A DNA stretch of 24,278 nt, taken from IMG/VR virus record IMGVR_UViG_3300042298_003385, positions 1 through 24,278 of that record; one strand, 5' to 3'. This DNA comes from a virus. A program made the translations under genes and the position numbers. Under the pieces are notes generated by a model. That model was not told the origin of the DNA. It did not search any database and worked only from the letters and a program-made list of their open reading frames with translations. Positions 3,621 to 23,634 of this stretch are shown piece by piece (within the stretch, counting starts at the first letter, position 1; every line of letters starts with the position of its first letter).

Positions 3621-4896
3621 CGTGCCGCTGAGTTTCTGGCGGCAGAAGCTGGAGGTCGCGGGGAGTCCGTTACAGGCGGAGGCGGCGGCGACGTGGGAGG
3701 CGGCGCGGCCGCATTCGGCGCTGGCGCTGGCGATGCTGTGGTGTGAGAGCCAGTTCGGGACGAGATTCAACCGGAACACGGTGACGAACCGGAACGCGTT
3801 CAACCTGCGGCCGCGGGGCGGGGATGGGTACCAGACGTTCGGGTCGTGGGCCGAGGGGATCGCGGAATGGCGGGCGCGTATCGCGGATCCGCTATACGCG
3901 TACGCGACGACGACCTCGGTGGCGGGGCTGGTGGCGGTGTTTGCGCCGGGGTGGGACGCGAACGATCCGGTGAGGTACGCGGCGACGGTGGAGAAGATGT
4001 TGGCGGCGTGGCCGCGGGAGGGGACGACGATGCCAACGTACGAGGTGGCTGGGCTGGGCGGGAAGCGGATCACGCTGCCGGTGCCGCTCGTGGTGCAGCT
4101 GGTGCCGGCGGGGCAGAAGAACCAGCGGCCGGGGATCAAGCGGCAGACGCCGGGGTTCTGGGTGCAGCACGAGACGGGGAATCCGGCAAAGGGCGCCGAC
4201 GCGGCGATGCATGCGCGGTGGCTGGCGAACGGCGCCGGCGGGCAGCAGCTCTCGTTTCACTTTGCGGTGGACGACAAGTTTATCTATCAGATGGTGCCGG
4301 TGGACGAGGTGACCTGGCAGGCGGCCGATGGGGCGGGGCCGGGGAACATGAGCGGCATCTCGTGCGAGCTGTGCATCAACGCGGGGATCGACGTGGCGGC
4401 GTCGCGCAGGAACGCGGAGGCGCTGGCGGCCGGGGTGCTCGCCGCACTGGGCATGCACGCGGACCGGGTGCGGCAGCACAACGCGTTTAGTGGCAAGGAC
4501 TGTCCGTCGCGGATGCGTCGCGAGGGGTACTGGCCGGCGTTTGTGGCCAACGTGGCAAAGCGGATCGGGTCGATCGAGCCGGTGGATCCGCCGAAGCCGC
4601 CGGTGGCGTTCGCGCAGCCGGGGGCGCGGCCGGCGTCGTGGAACGGGATGGACCAGGTGCTCGGGGGGGCGACGTTCCACGCGATCGGGCGGCGGGTGAC
4701 GGCCAAGGCGGGGGCGCGGTTCCGGCAGTACGCGGGGGCCAAGGCGCTGGAGACGCGGGCGCCCGCCACGGTGGAGGAGGTGCTCGAGGTGGAGTGGGCG
4801 GTGCAGGGTGACGGCACGTGGTGGTGGGTGACTGACGAGGGGCACCGGGTGCGGCAGGCGGAGACGGACTGCCGGGTGACGGTGGCGGTCGGGTGA
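3598..4896 (+). CDS. Endolysin: glucosaminidase-like domain plus zinc amidase
   Basis: The start is set at ATG 3598, with AGGAAAG about 11 bases upstream; an ATG at 3574 without a ribosome site would add eight residues. In the 432-residue product, residues 5-135 look like a glucosaminidase or lysozyme-type domain (WCESQFGT with Glu50 as likely acid, then NRNAFNLRPRGGDGYQTF). Residues 180-320 are an Amidase_2 (N-acetylmuramoyl-L-alanine amidase) domain with zinc ligands His191 (QHETGN), His294 (RQHN) and Cys302 (KDCPSR). Residues 355-430 resemble an SH3-type wall-binding tail. Two cuts in peptidoglycan, glycan and stem peptide, would follow. There is no signal peptide, so release should depend on the holin. 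The last four bases overlap the next start. Confidence 0.88.
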   Translation: MEWRTIGDVPLSFWRQKLEVAGSPLQAEAAATWEAARPHSALALAMLWCESQFGTRFNRNTVTNRNAFNLRPRGGDGYQTFGSWAEGIAEWRARIADPLYAYATTTSVAGLVAVFAPGWDANDPVRYAATVEKMLAAWPREGTTMPTYEVAGLGGKRITLPVPLVVQLVPAGQKNQRPGIKRQTPGFWVQHETGNPAKGADAAMHARWLANGAGGQQLSFHFAVDDKFIYQMVPVDEVTWQAADGAGPGNMSGISCELCINAGIDVAASRRNAEALAAGVLAALGMHADRVRQHNAFSGKDCPSRMRREGYWPAFVANVAKRIGSIEPVDPPKPPVAFAQPGARPASWNGMDQVLGGATFHAIGRRVTAKAGARFRQYAGAKALETRAPATVEEVLEVEWAVQGDGTWWWVTDEGHRVRQAETDCRVTVAVG

Positions 4897-5945
4897 GCGG
4901 CGCGGGGTGGAGCGAGGACGAGCTGGCGGCGCTGGCGTCGGGGTTCTCGTACCCGGAGTTCGACGAGTTGTTTCCGGGACGGCGGACGTATGACGCGTGG
5001 CGGCTGAAGCGGGCGGCGGTGGGCGCGCCGCGGGGGCTCGCCGGTGGGGCGACGGTGACGGTGGCTCCGGCGCCGGACGAGGACGACGTCGAGGCGTACT
5101 TCGCGACGCTGGAGCAGGCGGGCGAAGCGCGCGCGGGGATCAGCAGGACGCAGGAGTCGACGACGTTCACGCCGGCCGACAGGTTGCCGATCGGGGTGGC
5201 GTTCACGAGCGACTGGCACGTGGGGGCCGGGGGCGTCGACTACGCGCGGCTGCGGGCCGACCTGGAGGCGATCCGGGACACCGACGGCCTGTACGCGATC
5301 CACCTCGGCGATGTGCTCGAGAACACGAAGCCGCAGGGGAAGTCCGGGCCGGCGTTGTGGGGGGCGTTGTTTCCCTCGCCGGACGATCAGATCCGATACG
5401 CGGTGTCGCGGATGGAGATGGCGCTCGGGAAGTGGATCGCGCTCTGCCAGGGCAACCACGATGCGTGGGATGGCCGGTGGGCGGGGATCGACCGGCTGCC
5501 GCGGCTGGCGGAGCACCTCGGCTGCGCGTACTTCACCGAGCGCGGCGGGACGGTGCTGATCGAGCACGGTGGGCACCGGTACTGCGTGGTGGTGAAGCAC
5601 CAGTGGCGCGGGCAGGGGACGGTCAACAAGAGCAACTCGCAGCGGCGGGTGTGGGACGAGTGGCCGTGGGAGTGGCAGAGCGCGGACGTGGTGGCGCTGG
5701 GGCATACGCACGAGCCGCTGTGCGAGACGGTGCAGCGGCGGGGCGAGCCGGTGGTGTACCTGCGCTGCGGGACGTACAAGACCAAGGACGACTACGGCGA
5801 GCGGCTCGGGTTCCGGGCGGGGTACGGGGTGCCGGTGGTGGTGTTCTGGCCGGGGGAGCGGCGGTTCGTGCCGTTCCCAGGCGAGCGGTTCGACGAGGCC
5901 GTGGCGTTCTTGCGCGCGGTGCGGGGAGGTGACGGGAATGCGTGA
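4893..5945 (+). CDS. Calcineurin-like metallophosphoesterase with N-terminal DNA-binding-like segment
   Basis: The GTG at 4893 overlaps the endolysin stop (GTGA). The 350-residue protein has the full set of metallophosphoesterase motifs: SDWHVG (Asp107, His109), HLGD (Asp140), QGNHD (Asn188, His189), VKHQW (His236) and GHTHEP (His271, His273), so a two-metal site should be intact. Residues 5-45 (WSEDELAALASG, then YDAWRLKR) look like a small Myb/SANT-type helical domain, and residues 55-95 form a linker. Substrate unknown: DNA, a nucleotide or a cell-wall intermediate are possible. Its place inside the lysis cassette, coupled to both neighbours, is odd and suggests late expression. Confidence 0.85.
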   Translation: MSGAGWSEDELAALASGFSYPEFDELFPGRRTYDAWRLKRAAVGAPRGLAGGATVTVAPAPDEDDVEAYFATLEQAGEARAGISRTQESTTFTPADRLPIGVAFTSDWHVGAGGVDYARLRADLEAIRDTDGLYAIHLGDVLENTKPQGKSGPALWGALFPSPDDQIRYAVSRMEMALGKWIALCQGNHDAWDGRWAGIDRLPRLAEHLGCAYFTERGGTVLIEHGGHRYCVVVKHQWRGQGTVNKSNSQRRVWDEWPWEWQSADVVALGHTHEPLCETVQRRGEPVVYLRCGTYKTKDDYGERLGFRAGYGVPVVVFWPGERRFVPFPGERFDEAVAFLRAVRGGDGNA

Positions 5946-11346: not shown

Positions 11347-12129
11347 ATGAACTGGCTGCGGCTCTATCACGAGGTGCTCGACGACCCGAAGGTGCAGCGG
11401 CTCGACCCGGTGGTGTTCAAGGCGTGGGTCAACCTGCTCTGCCTCGCGAGCCGCAGCCAGCCGCGCGGGGTGCTCCCGGGAATCGAGGACATCGCGTTCG
11501 CGTTGCGGATGGGAACCGACGAAACGAATGCCGCCGTGGAGCTCCTGGTGGCTCGTGGGCTGATCGATCGCACCAAGAGCGGGCTAGCGATGCACAACTG
11601 GGAAGCGAGGCAATTCAAGTCAGACAACGTTTCAGAGCGCGTGCGTCGTCATCGACAGGCAACGTCTGGTGAAACGTTACATGAAACGTTGCGCGATAAG
11701 ACGGCTGTAACGGATGAGCAACGTTCCACGGAACGGAATAGTAACGCCCTAGATACAGAACAGAACAGAACAGAAACAGAGCAGAGCAGAGGAGATATGG
11801 GCGCTAGCGCGCCAGCAAAAGTGACGCCGATCGAGAAGGGGAAGCGGGGGACGAAGGCGCCGAAGCATTTCGACCTCGATGCGGAGCACTACGACGCGGC
11901 GGAGGCGCTGGGGTTCACGACGCAGCAGACGGTGGACGAGACGGCGCGGTTCCTCGACTGGCACCGGGCGAAGGGGACGACGCACGTGGACTGGACCGCG
12001 GCGTGGCGGAACTGGATGCGGAAGGCTCGGGACCTGAAGGCCGAGCGCGGCTCAAAGCAGACCGATGCGGACTACTGGGCGGAGTTCGACCGGCTGACGG
12101 GCGGCGGTGATGTGGAGGTGGGGCCGTGA
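11347..12129 (+). CDS. Replication initiator / replisome organiser
   Basis: The 260-residue protein has an N-terminal winged helix of the phage replisome-organiser type (1-90, MNWLRLYHEVLDDPKVQRL to GVLPGIEDIAFAL). A polar linker follows (94-150), then a C-terminal DnaT/primosome-like domain (172-230: HFDLDAEHYDAAEALGF, VDWTAAWRNWMRKA). It would bind the origin and load the replication fork with the product of the next gene. The linker is encoded by AT-richer DNA full of AACGTT boxes and pentamer repeats, as in lambda O, so the gene probably contains its own origin. ATG 11347 is preceded by AGGAGGGCG. The end overlaps the next gene by GTGA. Confidence 0.8.
   Translation: MNWLRLYHEVLDDPKVQRLDPVVFKAWVNLLCLASRSQPRGVLPGIEDIAFALRMGTDETNAAVELLVARGLIDRTKSGLAMHNWEARQFKSDNVSERVRRHRQATSGETLHETLRDKTAVTDEQRSTERNSNALDTEQNRTETEQSRGDMGASAPAKVTPIEKGKRGTKAPKHFDLDAEHYDAAEALGFTTQQTVDETARFLDWHRAKGTTHVDWTAAWRNWMRKARDLKAERGSKQTDADYWAEFDRLTGGGDVEVGP
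11626..11791. other. Probable origin of replication inside the initiator gene
   Basis: Four AACGTT boxes start at 11626, 11673, 11685 and 11720, with a variant AACGTC at 11661. Spacings are 35, 12, 12 and 35 bases, symmetric about the middle box. Downstream, CAGAA occurs four times and CAGAG three times in tandem (11756-11791) in an A-rich tract. Iterons next to an easily melted tract, within the initiator's linker, match the lambda ori/O arrangement. Confidence 0.65.
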
Positions 12130-12656
12130 CCTCGTTGAAGCAGGCGCTCGCGGAGTTGCGGACGGCGTTTCCGCAGCGGGATGTGCCGGTGGCGACGCTG
12201 GCGTTGTACGCGCGGCAGCTGGCGGACCTCGATGAGGCGGCGGTGGTGGACGCGGTGTACCGCCTGATCCGGACGGCCAAGTTCTTCCCGACGATTTCGG
12301 AGATCCGGGAGGCGGCGGTGGCCGGCGGGCCGATGGACGGCCTGGCGGAGGCGGCGTGGGCGGAGGTGCGCAAGGAAGCGGCGCGGGTGGGCTGGAACCG
12401 GGGGCCGGTGATGCGGAACCGGGAGCTGGTGGAGGCGGAGGCGCCGGTGTTTGCGAACCCGATCACGGAGGCGGCGGTGGCGTCGATGTCGTGGCGGCTG
12501 ATCTGCCTCGGGGAGCAAGCGGAGGTGCGGGAGCAGTTCCTGTGGACGTGGAAGAACCTGTCGAGCGGGCTGGTGAAGCGCGGGCAGGCGGCGGACGGGG
12601 GGCTGAAGGGGCTGCCGGGGGCGTCGGATTTGGTGGCGCTGAAGAGGGTGAAGTGA
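12126..12656 (+). CDS. Helicase-loader-like replication protein (G39P-type)
   Basis: GTG 12126 is coupled to the initiator by GTGA. Residues 1-65 (LAELRTAFPQRDVPVATLALYARQLADL, then RTAKFFPTISEIREA) follow the pattern of phage helicase loader/inhibitor proteins such as G39P, a helical bundle that binds a DnaB-type helicase. Residues 66-176 are helical and charged without a known motif. Following an initiator gene strengthens the call. The DNA is strongly G-rich on the coding strand. No helicase gene is present here, so the host helicase is the probable partner. Confidence 0.7.
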   Translation: MTSLKQALAELRTAFPQRDVPVATLALYARQLADLDEAAVVDAVYRLIRTAKFFPTISEIREAAVAGGPMDGLAEAAWAEVRKEAARVGWNRGPVMRNRELVEAEAPVFANPITEAAVASMSWRLICLGEQAEVREQFLWTWKNLSSGLVKRGQAADGGLKGLPGASDLVALKRVK

Positions 12657-13555
12657 TGGTGACGAAGAACGACCAGGTCGGGCGGTCCGGCAAGACGCTC
12701 GACAAGCACGTCGAAATGCGAAAGCTATTTGGGATGGCGCTCACGTTCACGAAGAACCTGCGTGCAGGGAAATACCCGCATGAGAAGACGCTGTCCAAGT
12801 TTGTCTATGTCGACCTGCACGCTGGATGCGGTGTTTATCCGGACGGAACAATCGGAAGCCCGCAGTTGTTTATCGACGAAGCCGAGCGCCTCGGTGAGCC
12901 GTATCACGCGATTCTTTGCGAGGTCGGCGCCGAGCAACTGATGAGCTTGCACTCACTTTACGGCAGGAATCCGAACGTCACGGTGGTCGGTGGTGATCAC
13001 ATGCGCACCGTTGAATCTGTGCGTTCGGTTATCCAGCAGGTTCGTGGCGACCGTGGGATTGTCTACGGCCTGGTGCTTGCCGATCCGAATGGAGCTGATG
13101 TTCCGGTGGAGGTGATCAACCAGATTGCCTCTGGATTCAAGGGCTCGCGCATTGACGTTGCGATATCGACGGGAGCGACCTCGTTTAAGCGTCGTGATGG
13201 CCAGCGGCTTCCTGGCGTGTTGGGTGGGATTAACAAGCGGTACTTCAAGTGTTTTTGGGATATCGGGGGGAAGTGGCAGTGGCAGATCTGGGTCGCGTCG
13301 AACTGGACGAATGCCGGAAAGAGCTTCCCCGCTGGAGCTCACTGGATGGACAGCAAGGGGAATCAAGAGGACGCGTTACTCAAGGCGGCTTTCACGAGCA
13401 GAGAAAGAGCGGTCGGCCTGCATCTCCGTATCGAACCTACCGCGAGTATCTCCGTCATCCCGAGTTCCGGAAGGTCCGAGCGCAGGTCTTCTCCCGATCA
13501 GGAGGTTGGTGCGAACGATGCCGGGTTGCCCCAGCAACTGAGCCTCATCACCTGA
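12656..13555 (+). CDS. tcmP: TcmP-family three-Cys-motif partner protein, methyltransferase-like; 3' end doubtful
   Basis: ATG 12656 overlaps the previous TGA by one base. The 299-residue frame has a Rossmann-type methyltransferase-like core: VYVDLHAGCG (Asp53, Gly56, Gly59), an ILCEVG strand end (Glu89) and VLADPNG (Asp143-Pro-Asn). It resembles TcmP, named for occurring beside the three-Cys-motif gp37/gp68 protein, here encoded at 13656-15197. Residues up to about 250 look like real protein. The last 47 or so (from about 13405) are low-complexity and are the out-of-frame reading of the HNH coding sequence, so a one-base indel or an overlap is suspected. The substrate is unknown. The island is less GC-rich than its neighbours, suggesting acquired cargo. 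Confidence 0.7.
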   Translation: MVTKNDQVGRSGKTLDKHVEMRKLFGMALTFTKNLRAGKYPHEKTLSKFVYVDLHAGCGVYPDGTIGSPQLFIDEAERLGEPYHAILCEVGAEQLMSLHSLYGRNPNVTVVGGDHMRTVESVRSVIQQVRGDRGIVYGLVLADPNGADVPVEVINQIASGFKGSRIDVAISTGATSFKRRDGQRLPGVLGGINKRYFKCFWDIGGKWQWQIWVASNWTNAGKSFPAGAHWMDSKGNQEDALLKAAFTSRERAVGLHLRIEPTASISVIPSSGRSERRSSPDQEVGANDAGLPQQLSLIT

Positions 13556-13647
13556 TCTATCCGAAGTGGGGCACGTTTGACCTGCCGGAGAACCTGATTG
13601 CGGTGTGCCACCACTGCCACTGCGAGATTCACGACAAGCCGGACTGA
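13279..13647 (+). CDS. HNH endonuclease, start uncertain
   Basis: From about 13411 the frame encodes a good HNH nuclease: WCERC, EPHHLIYPKWGTFDLPENLIAVCHHCHCEIHDK, with two zinc CxxC pairs and the catalytic His in HHLI. It ends nine bases before the next ATG. Within the part that looks like real protein there is no ATG, GTG or TTG. The first usable start with a G-rich ribosome site is GTG 13279, deep inside the TcmP frame (others at 13249 and 13273). Either the gene overlaps tcmP by over 270 bases, or tcmP and HNH form a single gene split by a one-base deletion near 13403-13407. Cutting activity is plausible from motif integrity. Confidence 0.6.
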   Translation: MADLGRVELDECRKELPRWSSLDGQQGESRGRVTQGGFHEQRKSGRPASPYRTYREYLRHPEFRKVRAQVFSRSGGWCERCRVAPATEPHHLIYPKWGTFDLPENLIAVCHHCHCEIHDKPD

Positions 13648-13655
13648 GGTGCGTG

Positions 13656-15197
13656 ATGGCAGATACGACGCGACAAACAATCACGATAAGCTGGGTGCAC
13701 ATCGACAATGTCAAGACCGATCCGGTGCTTGCTGACATTTGGCCGGTGCACGCGTTGACGGTCGACGCGATCGCCGAGGCGATGCGTGAGCACGGGTACG
13801 ACCGCGCCGAGCCGATCGTGCTGTGGCACGGCCGCGACGTGGTGGTCGACGGGCACACGCGCCTGGCGGCGGCGAAGGCGGCCGGCCTCGATCAGGTCTA
13901 CGTCGCCAAGACCGAGTTTGCCGACGAAGACGACGCGGTGCTTTACGCGATCCAGCGACAGAAGAACCGGCGCAACATTGACCCGGCGCGGCTAGTCACG
14001 CTGGTGCCGGACATTTATGCGCGCATGAAGCGGCAACGCGGCGGAGATCGCAAGAGTCAAGAATCAAAAACCTCCATGGAGGTTTTTGATCGCAAGAACA
14101 CGGCTCAAGAAGTTGCCGAAGTAGTAGGGGTATCTAAGGCTCAAATCGAGCGCATCGTGGCGATTGCCGACGAGCCGGAGCTGGTTGAGCTGGTGGCTCG
14201 CGGCGAGACGTCGATCCGGGCGGCCTACGACCAGGTGCGCGAGAACAAGCGGATCGCCGTCGAGGCTGCGACGACGTTCGAGCCGCCGGTCAAGCCGACG
14301 CCACAGCAGGCGCTGCCGGAGACCAAGCGGTACACGATCGACGAGGTCGGCGGCGCGGCCGTTCGCGGCGCCTACACGATCGCCGAGTGGACCGCGCTCG
14401 ACGATCGGCAGCGTCACCAGCTGCTGACCGCGGCGCCGGCCGAAGCGGCTGCCCAGTTCAACCGGACCAACGACAACGTCGAGTGGGCGCTGTGGACGTG
14501 GAACCCGGTCACTGGCTGCCTGCACAACTGCCCCTACTGCTACGCGCGGGACATCGCGGCGCGCTTCTACCCGCAGGGTTTTGTGCCGGCGATCGTGCCT
14601 GGCCGCCTGCATGCCGCGCGCCACATGAAGGTGCCGGCCGCAGCTGCGACCAACCTCGGCGAAAAGAACGTCTTCGTCTGCTCCATGGCCGACCTGTTTG
14701 GCAAGTGGGTGCCGCAGGAGTGGATCGATGCCGTGCTCGCCGAGGTGCGCGGCAATCCGCAGTGGAACTTCCTGTTTCTGACCAAGTTCCCGCGCCGGTT
14801 GTCGCAGCAGGAATGGCCGGACAACGCGTGGGTCGGCACGACGGTCGACAAGCAGTTCCGGGTCGAGATTGCCGAGAAGTCGTTCCGCGATGTGCGGGCG
14901 GGCGTGAAGTGGCTGAGCTGCGAGCCGATGCTTGAACGGCTGACCTTTTCGTCGCTTGAGATGTTCGACTGGGTGGTGGTGGGCGGGTCGTCGAAGTCGA
15001 CGCAGACGCCGGAGTTCAACCCGCCGATCGAGTGGTTTGAGCATCTGTTGCGTCAGGCGCGCGACGCGGGCTGCAAGGTGTACCTGAAGCCGAACTTTGT
15101 CAATCGGTGGCGGGAGTACCCCGGATTTGACGAGGTGACAACGGAGCACGGGATTGATACCGGGTGGGTTGATGGCGAGCCTGAGGTAGAGCGGTGA
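13656..15197 (+). CDS. ParB-like nuclease domain fused to DUF5131 (gp37/gp68) three-Cys protein
   Basis: ATG 13656 has GAGGTG upstream; an in-frame start at 13605 would invade the HNH gene. In the 513-residue product, residues 10-110 are a ParB/Srx-type domain (VVVDGHTRLAAAKAAGL) and residues 145-195 a ParB-style helix-turn-helix (TAQEVAEVVGVSKAQIERI). Residues 272-485 are DUF5131, with CLHNCPYC (Cys288, Cys292, Cys295), a CX3CX2C radical-SAM-like cluster site, then VFVCSMADLFG, FLFLTKFPRR, LSCEPMLE and VYLKPNF. It probably binds a DNA site through the ParB/HTH half and carries out iron-sulfur chemistry through the other. The reaction is unknown. TcmP and HNH neighbours suggest one nucleic-acid-directed system. 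The gene contains the palindrome at 14063-14090. Confidence 0.85.
   Translation: MADTTRQTITISWVHIDNVKTDPVLADIWPVHALTVDAIAEAMREHGYDRAEPIVLWHGRDVVVDGHTRLAAAKAAGLDQVYVAKTEFADEDDAVLYAIQRQKNRRNIDPARLVTLVPDIYARMKRQRGGDRKSQESKTSMEVFDRKNTAQEVAEVVGVSKAQIERIVAIADEPELVELVARGETSIRAAYDQVRENKRIAVEAATTFEPPVKPTPQQALPETKRYTIDEVGGAAVRGAYTIAEWTALDDRQRHQLLTAAPAEAAAQFNRTNDNVEWALWTWNPVTGCLHNCPYCYARDIAARFYPQGFVPAIVPGRLHAARHMKVPAAAATNLGEKNVFVCSMADLFGKWVPQEWIDAVLAEVRGNPQWNFLFLTKFPRRLSQQEWPDNAWVGTTVDKQFRVEIAEKSFRDVRAGVKWLSCEPMLERLTFSSLEMFDWVVVGGSSKSTQTPEFNPPIEWFEHLLRQARDAGCKVYLKPNFVNRWREYPGFDEVTTEHGIDTGWVDGEPEVER
14063..14090. repeat. 28-bp perfect palindrome within the ParB-DUF5131 gene
   Basis: ATCAAAAACCTCCA is followed exactly by its reverse complement, with no mismatch. 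It codes for part of the linker between ParB domain and helix-turn-helix and holds an in-frame ATG at its centre. GATCGCAAGA repeats directly at 14046-14055 and 14088-14097, flanking it. In RNA it would form an A5/T5 hairpin resembling a weak bidirectional terminator. Confidence 0.9.
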
Positions 15198-19811: not shown

Positions 19812-21007
19812 GTGTGGCCGAGGAGCGGCGCTCGACCGTGGCCCTGTTCCCGCGTCAGCGGCGCTTCGTGACGAGCACCGCGGCCTATCCGGCCTACATC
19901 GGCGGCATCGGCTCCGGCAAGTCCTACGCCGGCGCCGCGAAGGTGCTGACGCGCATCGGGCAGCGGGGCGTGGGCACGATCTACGCACCGACGTACGCGA
20001 TGCTGCGTGACGCGACCAGACGCACGCTGATCGACCTCCTGACGGCGCACGGGGTGCCGCACACGCTCCACAAGAGCGAGAACAGCATCACGATCCTCGG
20101 CACCGGGCACGAGATTCTTTGCCGCTCGCTCGACAACCCCGACGGCCTGCGCGGTCCGAACCTCGAATGGGCGTGGGTCGACGAGGCGGCGTACGTCACG
20201 CGCGAAGCGTGGCAGATCGTCAAGGGCCGCGTGCGCACCGGCGATCGCCCGCAGGCATGGGTGACGTCGACGCCGAAGGGGCGCAACTGGCTCTGGGAAG
20301 AGTGGGAGCGCGACGCCAGCGGGACCGAGTTCGACCCGCTGCATCCGCTCTGGCGGGTGCGCACCGACGAGAATCCCGAGCTCCCCGACGGCTTTGCGAA
20401 GAGCATCGGTTACAGCGGCGCCTTCGCGGCACAGGAGCTCGGTGGCGAGTTCGTCGCGTTCGAGGGGCTGGTCTACGCGCAGTTCTCGCGCGCGCGTCAC
20501 GTGCGCCGGGTCGACGTGACCGGGTGGCGGACGATCGTCGCCGTCGACGTCGGCACCCGCAACCCGACCGCGATCCTTACCGTCCACCAGGCGGGCGACG
20601 AGCGCATTCACCTCGGGGCCGAGGTGTATCGCCGCAACATGGCGGCCGGCGAGATCGTGGAGACGATCAGGGCGGCAGTGGACGCGAGCCAGGCCGAAGC
20701 GGTGGTGCTCGACCCGAGCGCCGCGGGGTACATCCTCGACCTCCAGCGAGCCGGGTACCCAGCCGTGAAGGGCGAGAACGCCGTCGTCGAGGGCATCGGG
20801 CGCGTTGTCGACAGGCTCGAACACGGCTTCACGATCGACCCGTCCTGTGTCAACACCATCGCGGAGTTCGAGGCGTATCGCTACCCGGATGGGAGCAAGT
20901 CGGACAACGACAAGCCAGTCAAGGAGTTCGACCACGCGATGGACGCGCTCAGATACGCCGTGATGCATCTGAGCGAACCAGCGTTGTCGGGGAGGTTGTT
21001 TCTGTGA
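19808..21007 (+). CDS. terL: Terminase large subunit
   Basis: GTG 19808 overlaps the small-subunit stop. In the 399-residue protein the ATPase domain has Walker A GGIGSGKS (32-39), Walker B WAWVDEA (121-127, Asp125-Glu126) and the coupling motif TSTPKG (153-158). The RNase-H-like nuclease domain has VAVDVGT (Asp247), VLDPSA (Asp302) and FDHAMDALRY (Asp376, Asp379). It cuts concatemeric DNA and pumps it through the portal. The length is slightly short but both domains are complete. Codon use is C-ending, like the tail genes. The end overlaps the portal start by GTGA. Confidence 0.95.
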   Translation: MSVAEERRSTVALFPRQRRFVTSTAAYPAYIGGIGSGKSYAGAAKVLTRIGQRGVGTIYAPTYAMLRDATRRTLIDLLTAHGVPHTLHKSENSITILGTGHEILCRSLDNPDGLRGPNLEWAWVDEAAYVTREAWQIVKGRVRTGDRPQAWVTSTPKGRNWLWEEWERDASGTEFDPLHPLWRVRTDENPELPDGFAKSIGYSGAFAAQELGGEFVAFEGLVYAQFSRARHVRRVDVTGWRTIVAVDVGTRNPTAILTVHQAGDERIHLGAEVYRRNMAAGEIVETIRAAVDASQAEAVVLDPSAAGYILDLQRAGYPAVKGENAVVEGIGRVVDRLEHGFTIDPSCVNTIAEFEAYRYPDGSKSDNDKPVKEFDHAMDALRYAVMHLSEPALSGRLFL

Positions 21008-23634
21008 GTCGTATGCGTCGATACGCCGACACCGTCGCCCGAGCGTTCGTCACCGGTCCGGGCTCCGTCCCCGATCCTGGCATCGCCAACTACCTCGCGG
21101 GCTTCGGGCTCGAGCAGGAGTCGCGGGTCGACTATGGCGAGTACATCCAGACGAGCAACGCGGTCTACACCGCCGCGCGTATCCGCGCCTCGCTCCTCTC
21201 CTCGCTGCCGATCGTCGCCTACCGCGTCGGTCCCGACGGTCGCAAGGACAAGGTCACTGGCGGGCCGCTCGTCGAGCTCCTTTCGAAGGTCAACCCTTTT
21301 TGGACGTTCCAGCGGCTCGTCGAGATGACGGAGCTCAGCCTCTGCCTCTGGGGGTCCGCGTACATCTTCCTCGACCGGGGGACGAACCGACGCGGGCGAC
21401 CGATGGAGATGTGGTGGGCGAGGCCGGACCGGGTCACCGTCGTCCCGGACAAAGAAGCCTACGTTAGCCACTTCCTCTACCAGGTCGGGAGCGATCAGGA
21501 GCCGATGCGCTTCGAGCGCGACGAGGTGATCTGGCTGCGCTACCCGAACCCGCTCGACGAGTTCGACGGGCTGTCGCCGCTCGCCTCCGCCGCGATCGCC
21601 GCCGACACGAGCCGGGCCGCGATGATCTCGAACGCCGCGATGTTCCGGAACGGGCTGCAGCTCGCGGGGGTCGTGCAACCGGCGAACGGGCAGACGCTCA
21701 CCGAAGAGCAGGCGCGCGGGCTCGAGCAGTCGATGAGCCGCCGGTTCAAAGGCGCGGACAAAGCGCACCGGTGGGGCGTCCTCCGCTTCGAGGCGAAGTT
21801 CCAGCCGCTGAGCGTGACGCCGAAGGACGCCGAATACCTCGGCTCGCTCAAGTGGTCGCTCGAGGAGATCTGTCGCGCCTACGGCGTCCCCCTCGACCTC
21901 GTCGGCGGCGAGCGCACCTACGCAAACCAACAGGACGCGCGGCTCGCGATCTGGACGGACACGATCCAGCCGGAGGCGCGCTTCATCGCGACCGAGCTCA
22001 CCGAGCAGCTCCTGCCGCTGTTCCCCAACGTCGCCGACCTCATCGAGTTCGACCTCTCCGGCGTCGCGGTGCTGCAGGAAGCAGAGGCGGCGAAGTGGGA
22101 GATCGAGAAGCAGAAGCTCGACGCGGGGGTGATGCTCCCGAACGAGTGGCGCGCGTCGAAGGGTCTCGACCCGGTGCCGTGGGGTGACGCCTGGTGGGCA
22201 CCGACCGGGAGTGGCGGCCTCGGTCCAGTCTCCTCCACAGTTCCGCCGGTAAGTGCTGCGACGGCATTGTCGAACGGAACCTTGACTGTCAACGAGGTCA
22301 GACAGTCGCAGGGTCTCGAACCGGTGTCGTGGGGAGACGCATGGTGGGTTCCTGCTGGATCAATGCCAGTCACGTCCGGCGAGGTCCCAACAGCGCAGGA
22401 GCCGGTCCAGCAGCCGATCGACGACACGCCTATCGACGACGAAGACGACACGCCGAACGACCTCGACGACCTCGCGCGCTCGCACCGCGCCGTCGCCGAC
22501 GTGGACCTGCGACCGACCGAAGAGGTCGCCGCCGTCGCCCGCCGCGCGCTCGCGTGGAAAGAGGAGGGGCGACCGGGCGGCACCGCCGTCGGTCTTGCCC
22601 GCGCGAACCAGCTCGCGAACCGGGAGCGCGTGTCGCCGGAGACGATCGCGCGGATGAAGAGCTTCTTCGCCCGGCACGAGATCGACAAGCAGGCCGAGGG
22701 CTTCAGCGACGGGGAGGACGGCTACCCGTCGCCCGGTCGCGTCGCGTGGGACCTCTGGGGCGGCGACCCGGGTCGCGCCTGGGCGGAGCGGAAGCAGCTC
22801 GAGATCGAGCGCGAACAGGAGGCCGGGCGGACGATCGTCGTCACCGGTCGCGAGTACGGCGACCCCGAACACGTCGAGCGGTTCGCCGCGTGGGTCCGCC
22901 GCCTCGAGCCGGAGGAGCGTCGCTTCGGGAACGCCGTCGCCGACCTGATGCGCCGACAGCGGCAGGCGGTCCTCGCCCGCGTCAAGAGCGAGCGCAGCGC
23001 GCGCACGATCGAGGATGCAGCCGAGAACCCGTTCGAGCTTGCGCGGTGGATCCGGGAGTTCCGCGTCGTGATGCGGCCGATATACCGCGACATCATCGCC
23101 GGCGCCGGACAGGATGGGCTCGCGCAGACCGGCGTCGGGATGGCCTTCGACGTGCTCGACCCGCGCGTCGTCAGGTTCATGGAGCGGCAGATCCAACGCT
23201 TCGCCGAAGAGGTGAACCAGACGACGTGGGACGCGCTCCGGGCGACGCTCGCCGACAGCATCGCCCAGGGCGAGGACGTGCTCAAGGCCGCCGACCGCGT
23301 CAATACGATCATGGGCGACCGCATCCGGTCGAGCGCGGAGGCGATCGCGCGGACCGAGGTCGGCGCCGCCGTCAACGGTGGGCAGGAGGAGGGCTGGCGA
23401 CAGTCCGGCGTCGTCGGCGGGAAGCGGTGGCTGTCCGCGATCGACGACCGCACGCGACCCGACCACGTCGCCGCGCACGATCAGGCGGTCGCGATGGACG
23501 AGCCGTTCACCGTCGGTGGGGAGCGGGGCATGTACCCCGGAGATTTCCCGAGCGCGCGGAACGTGGTCAATTGTCGCTGCACAATGGTGCCGATCAGCGA
23601 CACCGAGTGGGCGGCGATGAATGGGCGATCGTGA
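21004..23634 (+). CDS. Portal protein fused to an internal W/GGD domain and a MuF-type head protein
   Basis: GTG 21004 overlaps the terL stop. The 876-residue product is about twice the usual portal length. Residues 1-395 are an HK97-type portal (ALWGSAYIFLDRG-like region, YPNPLDEFDGLSPL, SLEEICRAYGVPLDLVGG). Residues 380-403 and 430-453 repeat the same motif (N-E-W/V-R-x-S, then WGDAWW) exactly 50 residues apart. After an acidic linker, residues 500-605 form a domain with ARHEIDKQAEGFS and GRVAWDLWGGDPGRAWA, known to me from other phage proteins but without a name. Residues about 620-865 are a head-morphogenesis (SPP1 gp7/MuF) domain: IARTEVGAAVNGG, SAIDDRTRPDHVAAHDQ, NCRCTMVPI. One chain would form the DNA gate and carry an ejection or assembly protein. 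Confidence 0.88.
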   Translation: MSRMRRYADTVARAFVTGPGSVPDPGIANYLAGFGLEQESRVDYGEYIQTSNAVYTAARIRASLLSSLPIVAYRVGPDGRKDKVTGGPLVELLSKVNPFWTFQRLVEMTELSLCLWGSAYIFLDRGTNRRGRPMEMWWARPDRVTVVPDKEAYVSHFLYQVGSDQEPMRFERDEVIWLRYPNPLDEFDGLSPLASAAIAADTSRAAMISNAAMFRNGLQLAGVVQPANGQTLTEEQARGLEQSMSRRFKGADKAHRWGVLRFEAKFQPLSVTPKDAEYLGSLKWSLEEICRAYGVPLDLVGGERTYANQQDARLAIWTDTIQPEARFIATELTEQLLPLFPNVADLIEFDLSGVAVLQEAEAAKWEIEKQKLDAGVMLPNEWRASKGLDPVPWGDAWWAPTGSGGLGPVSSTVPPVSAATALSNGTLTVNEVRQSQGLEPVSWGDAWWVPAGSMPVTSGEVPTAQEPVQQPIDDTPIDDEDDTPNDLDDLARSHRAVADVDLRPTEEVAAVARRALAWKEEGRPGGTAVGLARANQLANRERVSPETIARMKSFFARHEIDKQAEGFSDGEDGYPSPGRVAWDLWGGDPGRAWAERKQLEIEREQEAGRTIVVTGREYGDPEHVERFAAWVRRLEPEERRFGNAVADLMRRQRQAVLARVKSERSARTIEDAAENPFELARWIREFRVVMRPIYRDIIAGAGQDGLAQTGVGMAFDVLDPRVVRFMERQIQRFAEEVNQTTWDALRATLADSIAQGEDVLKAADRVNTIMGDRIRSSAEAIARTEVGAAVNGGQEEGWRQSGVVGGKRWLSAIDDRTRPDHVAAHDQAVAMDEPFTVGGERGMYPGDFPSARNVVNCRCTMVPISDTEWAAMNGRS
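22141..22360 (+). repeat. Duplicated segment in the portal linker
   Basis: The codes for NEWRASKGLDPVPWGDAWW (from 22141) and NEVRQSQGLEPVSWGDAWW (from 22291) lie exactly 150 bases apart. The second copy has drifted in about a quarter of its residues and in many silent positions, so it is not a recent duplication. The stretch between them (LGPVSSTVPPVSAATALSNG) is low-complexity. Confidence 0.8.

Follow-up and report, generated by a model that had tools for sequence, protein, structure and literature searches.

A phage gene cassette of TcmP, HNH and ParB/HTH-DUF5131 proteins with a palindrome embedded in the DUF5131 gene: a possible DNA-modification system carrying its own address

The object of this analysis is a three-gene cassette found in the IMG/VR virus record IMGVR_UViG_3300042298_003385, the whole 24,278 bases of which are referred to below as the window. 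The cassette encodes TcmP, a predicted S-adenosylmethionine (SAM) methyltransferase, an HNH nuclease domain, and a 513-aa protein in which a ParB-type domain and a helix-turn-helix (HTH) region are joined to a DUF5131 domain. Open-frame and domain scans placed the three genes where the initial annotation of the window had put them, and its observation as a whole was confirmed. In addition, a long perfect palindrome lies within the gene of the 513-aa protein. The features are as follows (positions are those of the window; SPL, spore photoproduct lyase).

12656..13555, plus strand: TcmP, class I SAM methyltransferase, RlmJ-like (TIGR04474, AlphaFold2 model, RlmJ fold match)
13429..13647, plus strand: HNH nuclease domain, in the -1 frame relative to TcmP (PHROG HNH matches, identity to locus L006, frame analysis)
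13656..15197, plus strand: 513-aa ParB/HTH-DUF5131 protein (PF07505, E 6.4e-40; AlphaFold2 model)
13680..13973, plus strand: ParB/sulfiredoxin-like N-domain, residues 9-106 (ParB folds 5k5d and 7bnk, PHROG ParB)
14063..14090, no strand: perfect 28-bp palindrome ATCAAAAACCTCCATGGAGGTTTTTGAT, candidate parS-like self-recognition site (palindrome scan)
14076..14270, plus strand: helical, HTH-bearing region, residues 141-205 (DSSP of the model; HTH_3 match at E 0.12 only)
14475..15092, plus strand: DUF5131 domain, radical-SAM barrel (PF07505; SPL fold 4rh0/4fhe)
14517..14540, plus strand: C288-X3-C292-X2-C295, predicted [4Fe-4S] ligands (invariant in 64/64)

The 513-aa protein starts at the ATG at position 13656 and matches PF07505 with 137.6 bits, above the gathering cut-off of 28.9. 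Its AlphaFold2 model, based on 64 sequences, has a predicted local distance difference test score (pLDDT) of 86.6 and a predicted template modelling score (pTM) of 0.58, so the packing of the domains is unsure. The N-domain resembles the pNOB8-like ParB 5k5d (Z 14.3, 188 residues, 3.9 Å) and the nucleotide-bound Myxococcus xanthus ParB 7bnk (Z 14.0, 94 residues, 2.0 Å), and the protein matches a PHROG ParB family (4.1e-9). No Pfam ParB_N match was obtained for it at E up to 1; such matches are present in 25 of 64 relatives.

According to the structural comparison, the barrel of the DUF5131 domain is closest to SPL (4rh0, Z 13.9, 224 residues; 4fhe, Z 13.9, 225 residues; both 4.0 Å), followed by RlmN (Z 11.2) and a viperin-like enzyme (Z 11.0); the LIAS fold was matched as well. 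The three cysteines of CX3CX2C are invariant across the 64 DUF5131 proteins compared. Among these relatives, Pfam finds DUF5131 in all 64 and Radical_SAM in 31 (E 0.01). In the window protein, PF04055 is below its cut-off (16.6 bits vs 29.5), the SPL model PF20903 is unmatched in a Pfam scan at E up to 1, and NCBIfam rSAM_mob_pairA matches at 83 bits, well under its cut-off of 355. The initial annotation had described a fusion of ParB-type, HTH and radical-SAM-like parts; the PHROG and structural matches and the invariant cysteines bear this out, and the predicted structure of the DUF5131 part is a radical-SAM one, judged at the level of fold. An SPL-like catalytic cysteine candidate, C342 (55/64), was dropped, as the sequence comparison was too weak for aligning it.

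The linkage of the genes was assessed in related loci. A scan of IMG/VR with the DUF5131 domain (best 80 of 138 relatives kept) and of a genome collection (20 loci) gave, with earlier loci added and contigs already represented omitted, 102 loci (handles of the type L006), all searched with profiles derived from these loci. Once near-identical and incomplete DUF5131 domains were removed, 88 remained. Of the 73 viral loci among them, five that lacked TcmP and had less than 1.3 kb upstream were set aside, and the remaining 68, window included, were judged. In 64/68 viral loci, TcmP precedes DUF5131 on the same strand at a distance of no more than 2.5 kb, and HNH is found at TcmP in 28/68. This rule retained four short loci because TcmP was visible in them; when 1.3 kb upstream was required of every locus, the counts were 60/64 for TcmP and 25/64 for HNH. 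Thus the genes are not scattered across relatives, as had been anticipated for a compact linked system in which TcmP adjoins the DUF5131 family. Of the 15 loci from the genome collection, four were set aside, and TcmP was detected in 3/11 and HNH in 1/11 (2/10 and 1/10 under the strict rule). Since TcmP was undetected at eight of these 11 bacterial loci, DUF5131 also occurs alone.

Pairwise protein distances in 27 loci (L019 and L100, with partial TcmP, omitted and L114 added) correlate between TcmP and DUF5131 (r 0.61), HNH and DUF5131 (r 0.53), and TcmP and HNH (r 0.34), and none of the correlations was reached in 5000 permutations. At the level of sequence comparison, this shows that TcmP, often HNH, and the ParB/HTH-radical-SAM protein are inherited together. 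It shows co-inheritance and not contact, because shared phage ancestry would give a correlation of the same sign. According to the DUF5131 tree, HNH was gained or lost at least 18 times (a quick tree with 23 of 66 inner branches poorly supported and no shuffled control).

In the phage and plasmid collections searched, 133 and 258 records, respectively, contain DUF5131. TcmP-DUF5131 pairs, which NCBI annotates on plasmids, are carried by plasmids of Streptomyces sp. NBC_01238, Streptomyces caniferus, Hymenobacter and Pseudomonas aeruginosa; that of NBC_01238 has TcmP, an HNH for which no gene is listed, and DUF5131. In the Gordonia phage Fairfaxidum, DUF5131 adjoins a TcmP-like methyltransferase on the opposite strand. 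No TcmP was seen with the DUF5131 gene of a Mycobacterium intracellulare plasmid or, in the stretch read, in Tetraselmis virus S20 and vir524. On the P. aeruginosa plasmid (L141, 2916-6080), genes for an integrase, DUF5131 and a 439-aa TcmP carrying a GMT-wHTH domain are adjacent to one another, which suggests a mobile unit. Among the gene families found downstream in the relatives, those of DnaB-like helicases, primases and initiators are the most frequent, although none occurs in more than 4 of the 79 proteins scanned.

The palindrome at 14063-14090, first indicated by a self-match of the window, lies in the linker after the ParB-like domain, where residues 135-138 of the protein have pLDDT below 50. 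The second-longest perfect palindrome in the window has 16 bp. A palindrome census covered 90 non-identical DUF5131 genes, that of the window among them and some truncated at contig ends, together with 3600 codon shuffles; each paired position counted +1 and each unpaired one -2. Scores of at least 8, 10 and 12 were reached by 46, 25 and 16 of the 90 genes and by 185, 11 and 2 of the 3600 shuffles, respectively. Only one of 63 TcmP genes scores at least 10, and within the same loci there are 25 such palindromes in 125 kb of DUF5131 genes vs 17 in 729 kb elsewhere. All 25 strong palindromes differ in sequence (CTCGCTTCCCGCAAATTTGCGGGAAGCGAG in L059 and GACTTTGTGGCAGATCTGCCACAAAGTC in L093 are examples). 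Measured from the DUF5131 domain, their centres lie 65 to 184 residues towards the N-terminus; 21 of the 25 fall at residues 127-163. The 90 genes are not all independent, since weaker palindromes are common to close relatives (L014, L025, L123, L125) and some centres, AAATTT for example, are seen repeatedly.

When a central spacer was allowed in the region before the DUF5131 domain, 42/90 genes reached 10, vs 9/540 shuffles. The spacer is 0 nt in 18 of these genes, 1-2 in 13, 3-5 in seven and longer in four. The 31 spacers of 0-2 nt favour a DNA dyad, because an RNA hairpin would leave the central bases free; mismatched positions have no marked G-T excess (4/30). Palindromes of at least 10 were found in 23 of 68 genes with TcmP and in 2 of 22 without it. 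With three mismatches allowed, four sister records each have a single copy of the core of the window palindrome, and the exact form of this core was found in IMG/VR, among the matches listed, in three sister contigs only.

Two further examples come from other replicons. The DUF5131 gene of the S. caniferus plasmid (an isolate; L137, 4284-5720), with TcmP upstream, contains at residue 142 a palindrome that is perfect over 30 bp. In Methanoculleus virus L4768, gp52 (L153, 1396-2613) bears the annotation of a partition protein. Judged by its DPPY and DPFMGSGT motifs, it is a ParB-HTH part fused to a DNA methyltransferase, and its gene contains the 20-bp palindrome TTTTGGAGAATTCTCCAAAA at residue 124. 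A search of each locus for additional copies of its palindrome gave nothing convincing except in L058, where a 20-of-26 match outside the DUF5131 gene (686-711) is possibly a second site. In L006, a perfect 32-bp palindrome (1457-1488) lies about 3.9 kb upstream of a DUF5131 gene without a strong palindrome and is possibly a site that has moved, or else unrelated.

TcmP extends from the ATG at 12656 to the stop codon at 13553-13555 (299 aa); its domain ends at about 13414, and the final ~45 aa overlap the HNH frame. Its match to TIGR04474 (E 2.2e-10, 40.9 bits; domain alone, 41.5) is under the curated cut-off of 53, and 37 of 63 TcmP relatives match this model at E 0.01. Motif I is D53-L-H-A56-G57-C-G59, so that residue 56, read in the initial annotation as Gly, is in fact Ala; the D143-P-N motif was read correctly. 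No match to the TcmP proteins of the window and L014 was found among phage records, nor to that of L014 among plasmid records. The AlphaFold2 model (63 aligned sequences, pLDDT 87.9, pTM 0.88) has Escherichia coli RlmJ 7p8q as its closest fold (Z 15.1, 199 residues, 3.5 Å), with other methyltransferases scoring close behind; the best Foldseek E is 2.9e-7. According to the profile search, RlmJ aligns with TcmP in motif I, a GSPLI segment and motif IV (whole-chain E 0.0065), and no single aligned stretch is significant alone.

The sole invariant residues of TcmP are K17 and D143 (63/63). By alignment, D143 corresponds to the motif IV Asp of RlmJ (D164), whereas K17 is paired with RlmJ K18 by position, not by alignment. 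In the account of RlmJ given in PMC3814359, the K18A and D164A variants are inactive, and T4Dam and the EcoRV methyltransferase possess a lysine corresponding to K18. The RlmJ-like fold and the invariant Lys/Asp pair make it likely that TcmP acts on a nucleobase, possibly adenine; the proposal that TcmP is a modifier is thus strengthened by a putative catalytic pair. RlmJ, a 23S rRNA m6A methyltransferase, and TcmP are alike in fold, motif I, the GSPLI segment and the position of the Lys/Asp pair, and differ in motif IV, DPPY in RlmJ and DPNG in TcmP.

The HNH domain of the window matches PF01844 weakly (17.7 bits vs a cut-off of 21.4), has clear matches to PHROG HNH families (best 5.9e-10) and is 64% identical to the HNH of L006 over 70 aa. 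It does not form the tidy separate gene initially proposed. Its open frame, at -1 relative to TcmP, begins at 13234, and the TcmP stop codon ends 126 nt inside the HNH domain. The nearest in-frame ATG, GTG or TTG is the GTG at 13279, 150 nt upstream of the domain; behind a GGGGGGAA stretch, it is a possible start. Relative to TcmP, the HNH frame in the 28 loci is -1 in 15, +1 in nine, the same in three (in-frame fusions in L018, L019 and L103) and upstream in one (L098); HNH follows the TcmP domain in the other 27. The three fusions suggest that the TcmP and HNH proteins work together.

A programmed -1 frameshift as the general route to HNH was considered and rejected: in 16 of the 24 out-of-frame loci a standard start lies within 48 nt of HNH, so ordinary overlapping starts explain most cases. 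Eight of the 24 have no such start, and in L109 neither a standard nor a near-cognate start is available to the HNH frame. Canonical -1 slippery heptamers were seen in L006 (5135-5156, CCCTTTC) and L109 (4171-4213, CCCTTTT and TTTTTTG); the chance of one in the shuffled stretch is 0.19 and 0.39, respectively. The window has no canonical slippery site. In L109, L006 and the window alike, the RNA of the region concerned is not unusually stable, with z values of 0.48 to 0.85. Frameshifting is regarded as a side lead only, as the heptamer shuffle odds are not small.

The window contains tailed-phage genes: tail fibre, amidase, single-stranded DNA-binding protein (SSB), replication initiator, RusA-like resolvase, terminase, and portal and head proteins. 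The cassette sits between the replication genes and RusA, with the SSB and a DnaD-like initiator encoded nearby. Three more contigs (L003-L005) encode TcmP and DUF5131 proteins 100% identical to those of the window, and the DNA of the cassette region is 99.85 to 100% identical across the window and these contigs, which argues against an assembly accident. When the DNA was compared with phage records, a single 72-base match was obtained. In L003, 461 non-matching bases take the place of 11347-11761, the first half of the replication-initiator gene, possibly a specificity swap. The GC content is 57.4% in TcmP, 59.4% in HNH, 63.7% in the ParB/HTH part and 64.9% in DUF5131, against 67.1% overall; GC as low as that of TcmP occurs in 0.4% of 471 segments of 773 nt (TcmP's own included). 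The deviating composition ascribed to the cassette therefore applies to TcmP and HNH, whereas the ParB/HTH and DUF5131 parts are near background. Elsewhere in the window, a 1171-aa open frame (20119-23634) has portal matches followed by head-morphogenesis matches, an apparent fusion, and a calcineurin-like phosphoesterase gene (4893-5945) directly follows the endolysin gene, before a holin-like frame.

The suggestion that the system might be undescribed was half right. The TcmP-DUF5131 pair is already known as a defence candidate of PADLOC, whose PDC-M30 and PDC-M41 models match both families, and the embedded palindrome is new. The cassette shares with this pair (TIGR04474; PDC-M30, PDC-M41) the same adjoining families, a three-cysteine protein and a methyltransferase-like partner; it differs in that DUF5131 is fused to ParB/HTH, HNH is often added, and the gene often has a palindrome. 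The name TcmP refers to the position of its gene beside that of the three-Cys protein (DUF5131), for which, to our knowledge, no reaction is known. In the open-access literature searched, DUF5131 is named in no paper, TIGR04474 and TIGR04471 are unmentioned, and the full name of TcmP was met in table entries of two papers. Passages of PMC10853773 deal with other systems, and PMC12207404 contributed nothing relevant. A ParB fusion, HNH at TcmP or an embedded palindrome was not met in these searches, as judged mostly from listings.

Other known systems resemble single parts of the cassette. SPL, which acts on DNA, shares with the DUF5131 domain the radical-SAM partial barrel and CX3CX2C and is its closest solved barrel fold; it has little sequence similarity past the cysteine motif, and its partners differ. 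The ParB-parS systems and the phage ParB-HTH-DNA methyltransferase fusions have a similar ParB-like/HTH architecture and, as in B. subtilis parB and L4768 gp52, a palindromic site in their own gene; here the effector is a radical-SAM domain, and the sites are perfect over up to 30 bp and all different. The lambda ori lies inside gene O, so there too the site of a DNA-binding protein is embedded in its own coding sequence between domains; in the present case, there is a single palindrome instead of iterons, and the effector is an enzyme. According to PMC4442127, parS-359 of Bacillus subtilis sits within the parB gene.

The likeliest explanation of the intragenic palindrome is a self-encoded parS-like landing site that would load the enzymes onto phage DNA. 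A ParB-like dimerising domain with an HTH is expected to bind a palindrome, and the palindrome is found in the protein's own gene, at a linker where the protein sequence is free, and varies between phages. The idea that the ParB/HTH half directs the protein to a DNA site thereby gains a candidate site. That similar ParB-HTH parts are attached to a DNA methyltransferase and to a radical-SAM domain makes DNA the likely substrate.

We put it at about even that the cassette is a phage-borne DNA-modification system carrying its own address. A ParB/HTH dimer would bind the palindrome in its own gene, perhaps loading as a nucleotide-gated ParB-type clamp, and would bring the radical-SAM domain and TcmP onto the phage DNA that carries the gene. 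The two enzymes might then alter bases in cis, and HNH, where present, might cut DNA without the mark or having lost it. With the site inside the specificity gene, site and reader would travel together during phage recombination. A fuller version, in which the reader loads a radical-SAM base editor and a methyltransferase in cis, only the DNA of the cassette is marked and HNH punishes unmarked DNA, is possible but rather doubtful; in it, specificity would be free to drift, since reader and address are in one gene.

Several results weigh against these proposals. HNH is absent from 40/68 viral loci, so the functional interpretation of the initial annotation is supported for the linked system and its DNA-directing part, but not for HNH as a regular member. 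The kinship with SPL is one of fold; in a comparison with six SPL-like proteins, mainly the Cys motif aligns in sequence. Motif IV of TcmP is DPNG, not DPPY: DPNG is found in the window and in 22 of the 63 TcmP proteins overall, DPPY in none. Even with a spacer, 48/90 DUF5131 genes miss a score of 10, that of the close relative L006 among them, and in 8/90 the DUF5131 domain is preceded by fewer than 100 aa, which leaves hardly any room for a palindrome. A score of only 6 was obtained for the DUF5131 gene of the NBC_01238 plasmid, where TcmP and HNH are present, and likewise for that of the M. intracellulare plasmid. Among six phage genes with a similar ParB part, gp52 alone reaches 10, the other five scoring 3 to 5, and AcaML1 gp24, a methylase gene adjoining one of the six, scores 9. 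Finally, PADLOC classes the TcmP-DUF5131 pair as a defence candidate, and self-marking need not be involved.

A phage-carried TcmP-DUF5131 defence system against competing phages, in which ParB/HTH merely controls expression via an intragenic operator, is unlikely but has evidence of its own. The DUF5131 part of the window matches PDC-M30B (1.3e-35) and PDC-M41B (2.2e-38); 17 and 8 of the 63 TcmP proteins match the two PDC-M30A models, and 4, 3 and 1 the three PDC-M41A models. The TcmP of the window matches a PADLOC A component weakly (0.031). Plasmid TcmP-DUF5131 pairs lie near integrase genes, and in PMC10855318 a PDC-M30 system is predicted for 32 P. aeruginosa strains, of which 68.8% were resistant. 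However, the PADLOC assignment is itself a prediction, and the P. aeruginosa plasmid has a different architecture, with a 247-aa DUF5131 alone and the 439-aa TcmP with GMT-wHTH. Its DUF5131 gene and the short one of Hymenobacter have no strong palindrome; these two, like the short genes of Fairfaxidum and Tetraselmis virus S20, score 5 or 6.

It is distinctly unlikely that the ParB/HTH part and the palindrome form a partition, origin or incompatibility element serving replication or segregation, with the enzymes as add-ons. Replication genes are close by in the window and its relatives, and a site within its own gene recalls lambda ori in gene O. On the other hand, partition alone would hardly call for two conserved enzyme partners, there is one site and no iterons, and a comparable arrangement involving a DNA methyltransferase is seen in Methanoculleus virus L4768. 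We give an equally low probability to the view that HNH is a free-standing homing endonuclease hitchhiking beside TcmP, outside the function of the cassette. Its optional occurrence and its repeated changes on the DUF5131 tree would fit such an element; its position on the same side of TcmP in 27/28 loci, the in-frame fusions, the overlapping frames and the correlation of its distances with those of DUF5131 do not.

An RNA-directed system, whose substrates would be rRNA or tRNA, modified by the RlmJ-like TcmP and an RlmN-like radical-SAM domain, and whose inverted repeat would form a hairpin in the mRNA, is highly improbable: RlmJ is an rRNA enzyme (as described in PMC3814359) and the RlmN fold is matched, but SPL fits better, the N-terminal part is a ParB-like DNA-binding one, and the inverted repeats have no spacer in 18/42 genes and 0-2 nt in 31/42, whereas an RNA loop would free the centre. 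Least probable of all is direct-reversal repair of DNA photolesions by the SPL-like domain, aimed by ParB/HTH, for which SPL as the closest fold of the barrel speaks and against which stand the TcmP and HNH partners, the single palindromic site and the unmatched Pfam SPL model.

If the reading of a DNA-modification cassette with its own address is true, it would represent a new way for a mobile element to distinguish its own DNA from that of others, and the DUF5131 proteins with their palindromes would make up a naturally occurring set of reader/address pairs linked to radical chemistry on DNA. Each palindrome predicts the DNA that its own protein would bind.

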